Shown in pieces: positions 3,734 through 27,151 of a DNA stretch of 41,811 nt (position 1 is its first letter; the number at the start of each line of letters is the position of its first letter). Under the pieces are notes generated by a model. That model had not been told where the DNA came from, ran no database searches, and saw only the letters and a list, made by a program, of their open reading frames with translations. The DNA comes from Clostridia bacterium (GTDB lineage: Bacteria > Bacillota > Clostridia > Oscillospirales > CAG-272), in NCBI GenBank assembly GCA_017540175.1, contig JAFYBN010000072.1:1-41811 (forward strand), written 5' to 3'. The position numbers and the translations under genes are program-made.

Positions 3734-5959
3734 TTACGACGCCGGGCGCGCCTGTTTTTTCGAAGGCATCCTGGACATCTGCCGCTGTGCCATGACGAGT
3801 CCGTAGTAAATCCCCTGCTTGCGCATCAACTCGTCGTGCGTGCCTATTTCGGCGAGTTCGCCCTTGTCGAGCACGAGAATGCGGTTGGCGTTGCGCAGCG
3901 TGGAGAGGCGGTGCGCGATGGCGAGGGTCGTGCGGTCGGCGGTGAGCTTCTGCAGCGCGTCCTGAATCTGCTTTTCCGTCTCGGTGTCGAGCGCGGCGGT
4001 CGCCTCGTCGAGGATCAGGATCCGCGGGTCGTGGAGCAGGGCGCGGGCGATCGCCACTCTCTGCCGTTCGCCGCCGGACAGCGTGTGTCCGCGCTCGCCG
4101 ACCTTCGTGTTGTACGCGTTCGGCAGCTTCATGATAAAGCCGTGCGCTCCGGCGATCTTCGCCGCCGTGATGACCTCGTCGCGTGTGGCGGTCGGCTTGG
4201 CGTAGGCGATGTTGTCATAGATCGTTCCGGAGAAGAGGAAGGTTTCCTGCAGCACCACGCCGATCTGAGACCGGAGAGAATCCTGCGAAATGTCCCGGAT
4301 GTCGATGCCGTCGATGCGGATCGCGCCCTCCGTCACATCGTACATGCGCATCACCAGATTGATGAGGGTGGATTTTCCGACGCCGGATTTGCCGACGATG
4401 CCGATCATCTCCCCGGGCTTGATTTCCACGCTGATGTGCTTCAGAACGGTCGATGTTTTATCATAACCGAAGGATACGTTGTCAAGGGTGATCGTACCGT
4501 CGATGCGGTGATCGATCGCGTCCGTTTTATCCGCGATATCCACGCTTTCGTCCACCACGTCGAAGATCTTCACGATCGAGGTCATGGTGCGGGTCAGACG
4601 GCGGGGGAGCCACGAGAGCCAGCGGAGCGGACCGTAGATGATGCTGACGTAAGCGGAAAACTGGCTCATTTCACCCAGCGTCATCGTTCCGCCGATGATC
4701 TTGTTGCCGACGTAATAAAGCAGGAAGTATTCGCCGACGCTCATGAGGAAGTTGAGAAAGGGCTGGATCTTCGCGAAGAAGTGTTCGGTGAGGATCCGCG
4801 TATCTCTGAGATCGCGAGAAACCTTGTCAAAGCGGCTGATCTCACGCTTTTCCATGCCGAACGCCTTCACGACGCGGATGCCGGAGAAGGTATCGTGCAG
4901 GATGGAATTCTCGCGCGAATCGAGCTGCCAGCCGCGGTGGAAGACGTGCCGCATGAAGCTGTGGAAGAGCCGGTAACTGCTGATGACGATCGGCGTCGGC
5001 AGAATGATCATCAGCGCGAGCCGCCAGTCGTAAGAAAAGAGGTAGATGCTCACGGCGAGCAGGATCAGAATCTGCTCCGTCATCGCGCCGAGATCGTTCG
5101 AGATGAAGCGGGAAAGCTCTCCCGTATCGTTCGAGACGCGGTTCATCAGCTCGCCCGAAGTGCGCTTCGAAATACGCGCGATGGACATCTTCTGGATCTT
5201 GTCGAAAACAAGCTCCCGCAGGGTGACGGTGATCCGGTTGCTCGCTCGGATGAGGAAGATGCTGCGGGTCATGCCGAGCAGCTTCTGCAGAATGTATACG
5301 CCGAACATGGCAGCGATCACGGCGAGATAACCCGCGAGCTTCGGCATTTCCGCCGCCTTGATGTAATCGTCCACGAGGATGCGGTTGATGTACGGCGGGA
5401 CGAGGTTGATCGCGGCGATGACGAAATAGAAAGCGATGGAGAGATAAATCAGGTGATGACTGGATTTCGAGATATCCCACAGCCGCTTGATATAATGCTT
5501 TTTGTCGACACAGTGCTCGCAGACGTTTGAGCCGGGCCGGTATTGACGGTGGCAGATCGGGCATCGGTTGTCGATTTCTTTTTCATAGTCGTAGCTGATC
5601 TCCCCGCCCTCGAGAAAGCGTGAAATCTCCTTTGCCGCCGCCGCGTAGAGATCGACATACTGGTTATCCGCGCGACAGAGAATGTGCCAGCTTCCGTCTT
5701 TTTTCCGATATTCGAGGAAGCAGCAGCCGATCCCCTTACGCAGAGCGACTTCCTCGAGCTCCGACAGGGGGATGTCCCCGGTCTTTTCACCGTCCGCAAA
5801 GACAAGGATGCGGTCCTTTGTGAGAAGGGCGATCCCGTCCGTGCGTCTTTTCTTTGCCGTCGGCGTCAGATTGAAATCGACCGGAAGCAGAATATCTTCT
5901 TCTTTAAGCTCCGGCGCGAGCTGCCTGACGCGGGCAGTCAGCGTTTTTCTGTTTTCCAT
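3734..5959 (-). CDS. ABC exporter half-transporter with N-terminal extra domain and zinc ribbon
   Basis: A 741-residue fused permease/ATPase. Residues 1-125 form a beta-rich cytosolic domain of unknown family. Cys133, Cys136, Cys147 and Cys150 make a CxxC-x10-CxxC zinc ribbon. Six membrane helices follow (about 165-460), and the ATPase has Walker A GKSGVGKST, signature LSGGERQRVAIARA and Walker B ILILDEAT with the catalytic Glu. Typical half-exporters are near 580 residues, so about 150 are additional. It is third in the operon ABC-DUF1854-ABC and probably pairs with the 777-residue exporter at 6528-8861. Both Walker B glutamates are intact, so both ATP sites could be active. I recall such DUF1854 trios annotated as cyanophycin-associated in proteobacteria; no cyanophycin gene is visible here and the substrate is unknown. 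Confidence 0.9.
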   Translation of the reverse strand: MENRKTLTARVRQLAPELKEEDILLPVDFNLTPTAKKRRTDGIALLTKDRILVFADGEKTGDIPLSELEEVALRKGIGCCFLEYRKKDGSWHILCRADNQYVDLYAAAAKEISRFLEGGEISYDYEKEIDNRCPICHRQYRPGSNVCEHCVDKKHYIKRLWDISKSSHHLIYLSIAFYFVIAAINLVPPYINRILVDDYIKAAEMPKLAGYLAVIAAMFGVYILQKLLGMTRSIFLIRASNRITVTLRELVFDKIQKMSIARISKRTSGELMNRVSNDTGELSRFISNDLGAMTEQILILLAVSIYLFSYDWRLALMIILPTPIVISSYRLFHSFMRHVFHRGWQLDSRENSILHDTFSGIRVVKAFGMEKREISRFDKVSRDLRDTRILTEHFFAKIQPFLNFLMSVGEYFLLYYVGNKIIGGTMTLGEMSQFSAYVSIIYGPLRWLSWLPRRLTRTMTSIVKIFDVVDESVDIADKTDAIDHRIDGTITLDNVSFGYDKTSTVLKHISVEIKPGEMIGIVGKSGVGKSTLINLVMRMYDVTEGAIRIDGIDIRDISQDSLRSQIGVVLQETFLFSGTIYDNIAYAKPTATRDEVITAAKIAGAHGFIMKLPNAYNTKVGERGHTLSGGERQRVAIARALLHDPRILILDEATAALDTETEKQIQDALQKLTADRTTLAIAHRLSTLRNANRILVLDKGELAEIGTHDELMRKQGIYYGLVMAQRQMSRMPSKKQARPAS

Positions 5960-26177: not shown

Positions 26178-26206
26178 TTGCAATCCGGGAACGGATATGT
26201 TATAAT
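26178..26206 (+). promoter_or_regulatory. promoter of tRNA-Glu
   Basis: TTGCAA (26178-26183), 17 bp, TATAAT (26201-26206). Initiation near 26213 would start about 11 bases before the mature tRNA. Confidence 0.75.
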
Positions 26207-26223
26207 AACACCGTTCCCGAAAC

Positions 26224-26295
26224 GGCCTGTTGGTCAAGCGGCTAAGACGACGCCCTCTCACGGCGTAAACGGGGGTTCGATTCCCCCACGGGTCA
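26224..26295 (+). tRNA. tRNA-Glu (anticodon CUC)
   Basis: A 72-nt cloverleaf: acceptor GGCCTGT/ACGGGTC with discriminator A, D stem GTC/GAC, anticodon stem ACGCC/GGCGT with loop CTCTCAC (anticodon CTC, reading GAG), and T arm GGGGG-TTCGATT-CCCCC. CCA is not encoded. Its last 18 bases (26278-26295) are repeated in the downstream array. Confidence 0.92.
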
Positions 26296-26914
26296 GATGA
26301 ATCGGCAGGCTTTACTGCCGATTTTTCATTTCCCGCGGAAGAGAGTTTCACTTAGGGGAATCGAACGGGCGCGTATAGAAAACAGTCCGGTGGACTGTTT
26401 GATCGCGCCCTGACCGAGCCTGCAGGCGAGACCGATTCCCCCACGGGTCAGATGAATCGGCAGGCTTAACTGCCGATTTTTCATTTCCCGCGGAAGAGAG
26501 TTTCACTTAGGGGAATCGAACGGGCGCGTATAGAAAACAGTCCGGTGGACTGTTTGATCGCGCCCTGACCGAGCCCGCAGGCGAGACCGATTCCCCCACG
26601 GGTCAGATGAATCGGCAGGCTTATCTGCCGATTTTTCATTTCTTGCGGAAGAGCGTTTCACTTTGGGGAATCGAACGGGCGCGTATAGAAAACAGTCCGG
26701 TGGACTGTTTGATCGCGCCCTGACCGAGCCCGCAGGCGAGACCGATTCCCCCACGGGTCAGATGAATCGGCAGGCTTTACTGCCGATTTTTCATTTCCCG
26801 CGGAAGAGAGTTTCGCTTTGGGGAATCGAACGGACGCGTATAGAAAACAGTCCGGCGGACTGTTTGATCGCGCCCTGACCGAGCCCGCAGGCGAGACCGA
26901 TCCCCCACGGATCA
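26296..26914 (+). repeat. four tandem 155-bp units derived from the 3' end of tRNA-Glu
   Basis: Units start at 26296, 26451, 26606 and 26761 and end at 26914, with periods of 155, 155, 155 and 154 bp. Each has, in order, a terminator hairpin, about 28 unpaired bases, and a long hairpin that ends in the 18-base tRNA 3' end CGATTCCCCCACGGGTCA. In the first unit the long hairpin is 26355-26441: GGGGAATCG pairs with CGATTCCCC, GGGCGCG with CGCGCCC, and AACAGTCC with GGACTGTT. The left arm continues as GGGGAATCGAAC, an inverted copy of the tRNA T-arm. Units differ by only a few substitutions. No open reading frame with a ribosome site is convincing, and no integrase is near. The function is unknown. 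Confidence 0.85.
26300..26326 (+). terminator. terminator of tRNA-Glu, founding copy of the array hairpin
   Basis: AATCGGCAG, loop GCTTTA, CTGCCGATT, then more Ts. The same hairpin recurs near 26455, 26610, 26765, 26919, 27002 and 27083, the last two diverged. Confidence 0.85.
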
Positions 26915-27118
26915 GATGAATCGGCAGGCTTAACTGCCGATTTTTCATTTCCTTCGGACGGTGACACGGTTTCAAGGGTCTCACTCCCCGCGTGTCGGAT
27001 GAATCGCCGGGTTTCCCTGTCGGTTTTTCATTTCTTGGGATGGTGACGCGTTTTCCCGGGGGATCACCCCGCGCGTCCGGTGAATCGGCAGGCATGATCG
27101 GTCGATTTTTTATTTCGG
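26915..27118 (+). repeat. second, shorter array type (about 82 bp) sharing the same terminator hairpin
   Basis: After the 155-bp units the hairpin recurs at 26919, 27002 and 27083 with spacings of 83 and 81 bp. The segments between hairpins (26954-26997 and 27036-27078) resemble each other (GGACGGTGAC... and GGATGGTGAC..., each with a TCAC block and a GCGTG/GCGTC end) but not the long hairpin of the first type. Divergence is higher than in the 155-bp units, so this part looks older. The remaining bases up to the Nudix gene hold no promoter I can see. Confidence 0.7.
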
Positions 27119-27151
27119 GACAATCTCAAGGCACGGCGATTGAAGGGTAAC

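Follow-up and report, generated by a model that had tools for sequence, protein, structure and literature searches.

The window, that is, the whole stretch of 41,811 nucleotides analysed here, carries a tRNA-Glu(CTC) gene on the forward strand (26224..26295; ARAGORN, and Rfam RF00005 at 60.3 bits) that is followed by a tandem array on the same strand. According to TRF, 26278-26952 is a repeat with a period of 155, 4.4 copies and 96% matches. Unit 1 (26296-26450), unit 2 (26451..26605) and unit 3 (26606..26760) are 155 bp long, unit 4 (26761..26914) is 154 bp long, and one further terminator copy follows unit 4. Every unit starts with the terminator-like hairpin of tRNA-Glu (ATGAATCGGCAG..CTGCCGATTTTTCAT; first copy at 26297..26329), continues with a spacer of ~25 bp, a left arm (GGGGAATCGAAC) and a core, and closes with a right arm and tail (CGATTCCCCCACGGGTCA; altered to CGATCCCCCACGGATCA in unit 4). 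The repeated tail is the last 18 bases of tRNA-Glu(CTC), 26278-26295. The left arm (26355..26366 in unit 1) repeats the T-loop and 3′ T-stem of the same tRNA in inverted form, both arms thereby matching the T-arm and tail of 26224-26295. Tandem units opened by the terminator and closed by the 18-base tail, with an inverted T-arm as left arm, had been described in the initial annotation, and TRF and the sequence confirm this layout. The source genome is a draft assembly of 125 contigs, and the four copies are therefore those of the assembly.

Between the inverted and the direct T-arm copies lies a conserved core, which consists of a helix, P2/P2b, with a conserved internal loop, and a P3 hairpin. 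In unit 1, P2/P2b (GGGCGCG..AAACAGTCC..GGACTGTTT..CGCGCCC) occupies 26367..26410, as supported by RNA and DNA folds, covariation and a covariance model of the core; the P3 motif TGACCGAGCCTGCAGGCGAGA, used for a pattern search of the genome, occupies 26411..26431, and the right arm with the tRNA tail copy occupies 26433..26450. The RNA and DNA folds of the unit both show the long helix P2/P2b, the short P3 hairpin and an outer stem in which the two arms pair. The RNA fold of 26340-26450 has −47.2 kcal/mol (z −3.5) and the DNA fold of 26353-26441 a z of −5.1, and in each case 0 of 200 shuffles equalled it. The covariance model, R1, spans 69 positions with several hairpins and matches unit 1 at 26364-26431 (E=1.8e-14) and units 2 to 4 at 26519-26586, 26674-26741 and 26829-26896.

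Downstream of the array, 26915..27116 holds diverged, terminator-bearing repeats of ~83 bp on the same strand that lack the core (TRF: 2.5 copies, 72% matches). Their folds have a z of −2.65 for the first repeat and −0.39 for the second, and they are perhaps older tail duplications. The two tail-like repeats contain short hairpins, which look like an acceptor plus T-arm minihelix, and their ends differ by a complementary change (GACACG/CGTGTC, GACGCG/CGCGTC).

Near-identical units had been taken as a sign of recent or ongoing amplification. Their near-identity stands; however, the congeners G002, G018 and G024 carry units of this kind at tRNA-Glu(CTC) whose stem sequences differ, and we read the arrays as concerted evolution by recombination or slippage between direct repeats rather than as proof of a single recent burst. 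G002 has three units with the same core, two of which lie at a contig end with no tRNA in view. Through the gene downstream, a NUDIX gene, 7 of the 25 congeneric genomes could be matched; in the six besides the source genome, the sequence covered has no tRNA-Glu directly upstream on the same strand.

Recurrence of the core across tRNA genes and genomes

A DNA search of the source genome returned copies on further contigs, and those that were read stand behind other tRNAs. The 21-base P3 motif has 13 sites in the genome at up to one mismatch and one more, on contig C26, with three; the pattern read backwards has no site in the genome. With E up to 0.05, model R1 matches 18 places, 17 of which are credible: the four units at tRNA-Glu(CTC); three behind tRNA-Glu(TTC); two each behind tRNA-Leu(GAG) and tRNA-Leu(CAG); one each behind tRNA-Val(CAC), tRNA-Leu(TAG) and tRNA-Tyr; one behind another tRNA-Tyr, cut off by the contig end; and two at the end of contig C119, flanked by tRNA-Tyr tail sequence. 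All 17 credible matches are therefore at tRNA tails, the two on C119 being assigned from their flanks alone. The eighteenth (E=0.024) has no tRNA near it and is read as chance. Contigs C16 and C119 probably each end in a part of one tRNA-Tyr array. A lone 5′ half of the core is also found behind another tRNA-Leu(GAG), at locus L013. The units at tRNA-Tyr (L280 on C46, L281 on C119 and L286 on C16) have a different P3 hairpin, which reads GCCGGCTCGGAAGCCGGC in L280.

Beyond this genome, the exact P3 motif occurs in at least 116 stretches in named genomes. Nearly all of the 80 motif matches listed are metagenome-assembled Clostridia, many from ruminants and other animals; a motif match in Saccharibacillus (L073) was discarded as a family member, no core being recognisable there. 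At E up to 0.001, 50 of 147 relatives, one of them the source genome, have a match to model R1. Under stricter filters and with E up to 1e-5, 298 further genomes sampled across the phylum gave no match. In these searches, the core family turned up in this order and among the Clostridia of the motif search and nowhere else. Its presence is patchy: 10 of 25 genomes of the genus carry it, the source genome counted and many genomes being incomplete. The fetched loci contain 156 distinct motif sites at up to one mismatch. Among these, 62 lie within 620 bp downstream of a same-strand tRNA, at 49 loci and behind 18 anticodons, which bears out the recurrence beside tRNA genes of relatives that the initial annotation had proposed to look for; the remaining 94 have no same-strand tRNA within 1 kb upstream, some of them only since the contig ends. 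In one unit behind tRNA-Gln (L147, genome G005), a long hairpin takes the place of P3, and TGACCGA and the GAG after it are kept.

A tandem array in a draft assembly could be a product of local replication slippage at one tRNA, or an artefact of assembly, with no mobile element involved. Recurrence of the core at many tRNAs and elsewhere in many genomes refutes this as a full account and leaves it next to no probability; slippage or recombination is nonetheless the likely way in which the array grows. Full-text searches of open-licence papers showed, in titles and abstract openings, no description of the Clostridial family. The earlier statement that no named family exists holds for the Clostridial family in this sense, but not for its plan, which is that of the tyrT/RtT array of E. 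coli discussed below. We hold, with about even confidence, that the array represents a mobile hairpin element, formed at the level of DNA, which settles at tRNA tails and is stacked locally here.

Arm matching and base pairing

Arms were compared with the neighbouring tRNA over the 62 tRNA-linked units. The longest inverted match between the left arm and the tail of its tRNA averaged 10.9 nt, against 6.3 nt when tRNAs were swapped between isotypes (highest of 200 swaps, 7.3). For the right arm, the direct match averaged 16.9 nt, against 5.8 nt with swapped tRNAs (highest of 200 swaps, 6.5). Both arms fit their own neighbouring tRNA far better than other tRNAs, and the direct copy continues to the tRNA end and, in the arrays that were read, into the terminator. 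Counting against an element that settles at tRNA tails, the left-arm match is shorter than 7 nt in 7 of the 62 units. Four of these (L009 twice, L108 and L112) have the inverted T-arm further upstream, outside the scanned stretch; the other three (L021, L031 and L099) are without one, L031 and L099 sitting within a partial tRNA-Cys copy. A variant order, judged by eye, occurs at L047: tail, terminator, complete inverted tail, core, tail. L011 has, on its reverse strand at ~1920-1941, part of the T-arm region of tRNA-Gly(CCC) in inverted orientation, directly upstream of tRNA-Leu(CAG) and without a core.

For the analysis of pairing, we started from 145 sites with enough upstream sequence and dropped 15 named loci with missing or interrupted helices as well as sites without GAA in the loop. 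Removal of near-duplicates left 62, and 56 were aligned after six more odd ones had been left out. In these 56 cores, 96.3% of cells pair, a percentage that is not a fair test since the selection favours structure. More telling is the kind of change: 155 changes are two-sided and 2 one-sided, in agreement with the stem covariation expected of the initial annotation's long hairpin. The constancy of P3 is partly by construction, because the loci were found by a P3 motif match. None of 500 shuffles reached the percentage paired, the two-sided count or the score; two other of the five covariation measures were less extreme, being reached by 10 and 6 of 500 shuffles.

G.T makes up 4 of 691 standard pairs in P2/P2b. 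It also makes up only 4 of 38 departures from Watson-Crick pairing there, and G.T is thus no better tolerated than other mismatches. By comparison, the stems of 97 tRNAs from the fetched loci contain 175 wobble (G.U) pairs in 2140; the P value of this comparison is only indicative, because the cells are related by descent. The near absence of G.T pairs points to a palindrome at the DNA level. DNA folds of three elements from elsewhere gave an uneven picture. The fold of L030 (z −5.7) is as convincing as that of unit 1; L145 has a z of −2.0, with 10 of 200 shuffles as good, and L212 a z of −0.6, with 50 of 200. Two of the four whole elements folded as DNA, L145 and L212, are therefore little better than shuffles, which counts against a DNA-level hairpin element.

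The same data bear on a different reading, in which selection acts on the unit as a structured RNA, co-transcribed with the tRNA and serving as a processed small RNA, a decoy or a stacked terminator. The stable RNA folds of the window units, the covariation, the conserved loops and the co-directional placement of units behind tRNAs agree with it, as does the annotation of RtT as an RNA processed from the tyrT transcript. We nevertheless consider it unlikely: wobble pairs are almost missing, 94 of the 156 motif sites are without a tRNA within 1 kb upstream (some from contig ends), a terminator separates the units, and the core is carried by only 10 of the 25 congeneric genomes, source included, though many of these are incomplete. 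The lack of wobble pairs is also a warning of a more general kind, in that strong covariation can stem from template switching on DNA and not necessarily from a selected RNA. A hammerhead-like reading of the junction (CTGACCGA..GAGA) was dropped, with no Rfam ribozyme match.

Insertion sites and candidate enzymes

Many copies away from tRNA tails begin with GTAGCGNAGC or similar mini-hairpins. An empty site was found for 5 of 36 insertions with a recognisable start, not always from the same genome. At L145 (reverse complement, ~1410-1525), the core interrupts the D-loop of a tRNA-Leu(CAG) copy that is complete with CCA and terminator. An intact copy nearby reads TTGCGCG-T-CTACC, and the occupied one TTGCGCGT[AGCGG...GCGAGAC]CTACC; comparison of the two gives no target duplication at the insertion. 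Similarly, 5′ fragments of tRNA-Leu(CAA) at L032, L040 and L065 are interrupted at the same point. Where the core sits in palindromic repeats, the host stem seems to have lost a few bases. These interruptions of palindromic repeats and tRNA D-loops without target duplication indicate that the core moves. In genome G073, like cores stand in unlike surroundings, two of seven sharing theirs. Copies in G087, the carrier with the most matches, share longer flanks, and a larger repeat may be what spreads there. At L095 (~4720-4830), a tRNA-Arg(CCT)-like sequence, named by eye, is interrupted in its D-loop by the core; at L257, L258 and L259, the P2b hairpin of the core has a further palindrome (GGTTAGGGGTTCCCCGAGC..) nested inside it.

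Based on these findings, we propose a plausible route by which a mobile hairpin element would come to stand in arrays at tRNA tails. First, the core would enter single-stranded DNA at a site able to form a hairpin. If that site is a tRNA T-loop, strand switching at the join would leave the element between inverted copies of the tRNA tail. Template switching in replication would keep arms and stems exact complements and would explain compensatory change without G.T intermediates; one-step double changes in inverted repeats through template switching are described in passages of PMC8794818. The unit may then be multiplied and homogenised as the repeated tails and terminators recombine or slip against one another. 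No benefit to the host need be assumed. The very small mobile element, bounded by the tRNA tail and its inverse and amplified in tandem, that the initial annotation had considered is supported in this form.

A tyrosine recombinase supplied in trans, with the tRNA tail as attachment site of a miniature element, had also been suggested, and the 18-base direct repeats of the tRNA tail that bound each unit would suit such an enzyme. Nothing else in the sequences examined points to one. The left end is an inverted T-arm and no crossover site, and the five insertions whose empty sites are known have, by eye, no obvious attachment sequence in common. A search of 50,697 phage and 72,556 plasmid records gave no match. 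We regard this origin as very improbable.

The 5′ ends (GTAGCGNAGC) and the clean insertion into palindromes without target duplication could be explained by a non-autonomous, REP-like transposon that an HUH (Y1) transposase moves in single-stranded form. Outside tRNA tails, copies often have GTAG and a GNA mini-hairpin at their start, RAYT-like ORFs occur in a few relatives, and some GTAG repeats likewise sit inside palindromes, as a passage of PMC3733652 records. Candidate enzymes were compared between 26 carriers and 26 non-carriers, hand-picked from relatives, many of whose genomes are incomplete. Y1_Tnp is present in 10 of the 26 carriers and 12 of the 26 non-carriers, without association, and at E up to 1e-5 it has no match in the source genome or in G087. 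Reverse transcriptase (PF00078) was found in 6 carriers, with one match in the source genome, and in 11 non-carriers; IS110-type transposase (PF01548) was found in 4 carriers, one of them below the cut-off, and in 6 non-carriers. All three were set aside as cognate enzymes, none being associated with the core in this comparison. Moreover, the core is absent at the 12 Y1 and 6 reverse-transcriptase loci fetched, and at 6 loci with weak, RAYT-like Y1 matches. Copies at tRNA tails do not start with GTAG, and the Clostridial cores are almost free of the G-T pairs that PMC3733652 describes as frequent in GTAG repeats. Taken together, we consider a REP-like transposon possible, if somewhat unlikely.

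Searches for an autonomous copy gave none among the 5′ and 3′ halves mapped in seven genomes. In G087, ~170 bases beyond each lone 5′ half, judged by eye, hold nothing like an element end, and three longer copies contain only the nested palindrome. A long ORF behind tRNA-Ser in L047 was rejected as cargo; by eye it encodes a helix-turn-helix membrane protein, with no evident link to the core. That neither a mobilising enzyme nor an autonomous copy was found counts against the proposed route. So does the clean insertion into palindromes, a hint of a dedicated enzyme for which a purely host-driven model has no place, and the conserved internal loop suggests that a folded strand is recognised by some factor. 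At L243 (1746-2354), a RAYT-like transposase ORF contains a long inverted repeat inside its coding sequence, with arms at 1934-1959 and 2104-2129.

Relation to RtT of E. coli and GTAG-type repeats

The repeats of the E. coli tyrT locus have been known since the late 1970s, and RtT has been proposed as a processed small RNA, a decoy or a stacked terminator. We know of no account of the origin of these repeats. The K-12 tyrT locus has 3.1 copies of 178 bp. Each unit carries GGGGAAGGAT, which by eye is the inverse of the 3′ strand of the tRNA-Tyr T-arm and stands opposite the direct tail copy; we have not seen this inverted T-arm stated before. Behind tRNA-Pro of E. coli, RtT (Rfam, 101 bits) has the arms GAGGAT/ATCCTC and a duplicated terminator. 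The tRNA-Pro locus measures 185 bp in E. coli HS and 353 bp in carriers, a difference of one 168-bp unit, and in a Salmonella record RtT is annotated twice behind tRNA-Pro (annotation only). Among 5426 E. coli genomes, the tyrT core is present in 4692, at 1 to 10 places each, and the tRNA-Pro core in 3324; 666 of the latter match at 80-90% identity and are probably of the tyrT type.

RtT and the Clostridial unit share tandem units that end in the tRNA 3′ end, a hairpin core between arms, and an inverted T-arm as left arm facing a direct copy of the tail; the copy number of RtT also varies. Judged from these sequences, RtT behind tRNA-Tyr and tRNA-Pro has the same plan, matched arms being a criterion found here and not part of a published definition, with the E. 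coli arms assigned by eye. Sequence and fold of the cores differ, and the likeness is one of plan: the RtT model (RF00391) has no match in the window at 26200-27130 up to E=10, and, up to the same E, model R1 finds none in the E. coli tyrT locus. In this analysis, RtT stood behind tRNA-Tyr and tRNA-Pro alone, whereas the Clostridial core occurs at 18 anticodons and away from tRNAs. The Clostridial core is a new family on a known, unexplained plan: a real and widespread element family that shares the plan of RtT and has a different core, and for which we infer the mechanism given above. By eye alone, short stretches of the two look alike, namely GGCCCGCAGGGCGAG and GAGCCCGCAGGCGAG, and at the core ends GGCGAGTA and GGCGAGA.

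Like GTAG-type REP/BIME sequences, which are RAYT-associated, the Clostridial core is palindromic, dispersed and inserted in palindromes, and its copies outside tRNA tails often have GTAG at one end (by eye). It differs from them in being longer, in having several hairpins, hardly any G.T pairs and arms matched to tRNAs, and in its lack of association with Y1 transposases. A passage of PMC3733652 describes GTAG-type REPs as palindromes of 20-40 bp with a terminal GTAG; R1 has 69 positions, and GTAG is present in only part of the non-tRNA copies. Correction of quasipalindromes by template switching, by which exact inverted repeats are made or repaired in one step and double substitutions arise without intermediates (described in passages of PMC8794818), is a mutation process and not an element, and it is invoked here for the arms and stems of an element that moves.

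With a second, non-matching core that has tRNA-matched arms at many tRNA genes, the tyrT curiosity becomes a repeatable pattern with a testable origin: the puzzling tRNA repeats of E. coli are built like hairpin elements behind many tRNA genes in a group of gut Clostridia. We tentatively entertain, with some doubt, a cross-phylum class of ‘tRNA-tail elements’ comprising RtT and the Clostridial family. Its members would be enzyme-less hairpins that take the T-arm of the target tRNA as inverted arms through strand-switching synthesis and then form arrays with tail and terminator. In Salmonella serovars, a table in PMC2658671 lists a 175-bp VNTR at rtT; the same table has a 220-bp VNTR at tRNA-Gly, which may be another such array.
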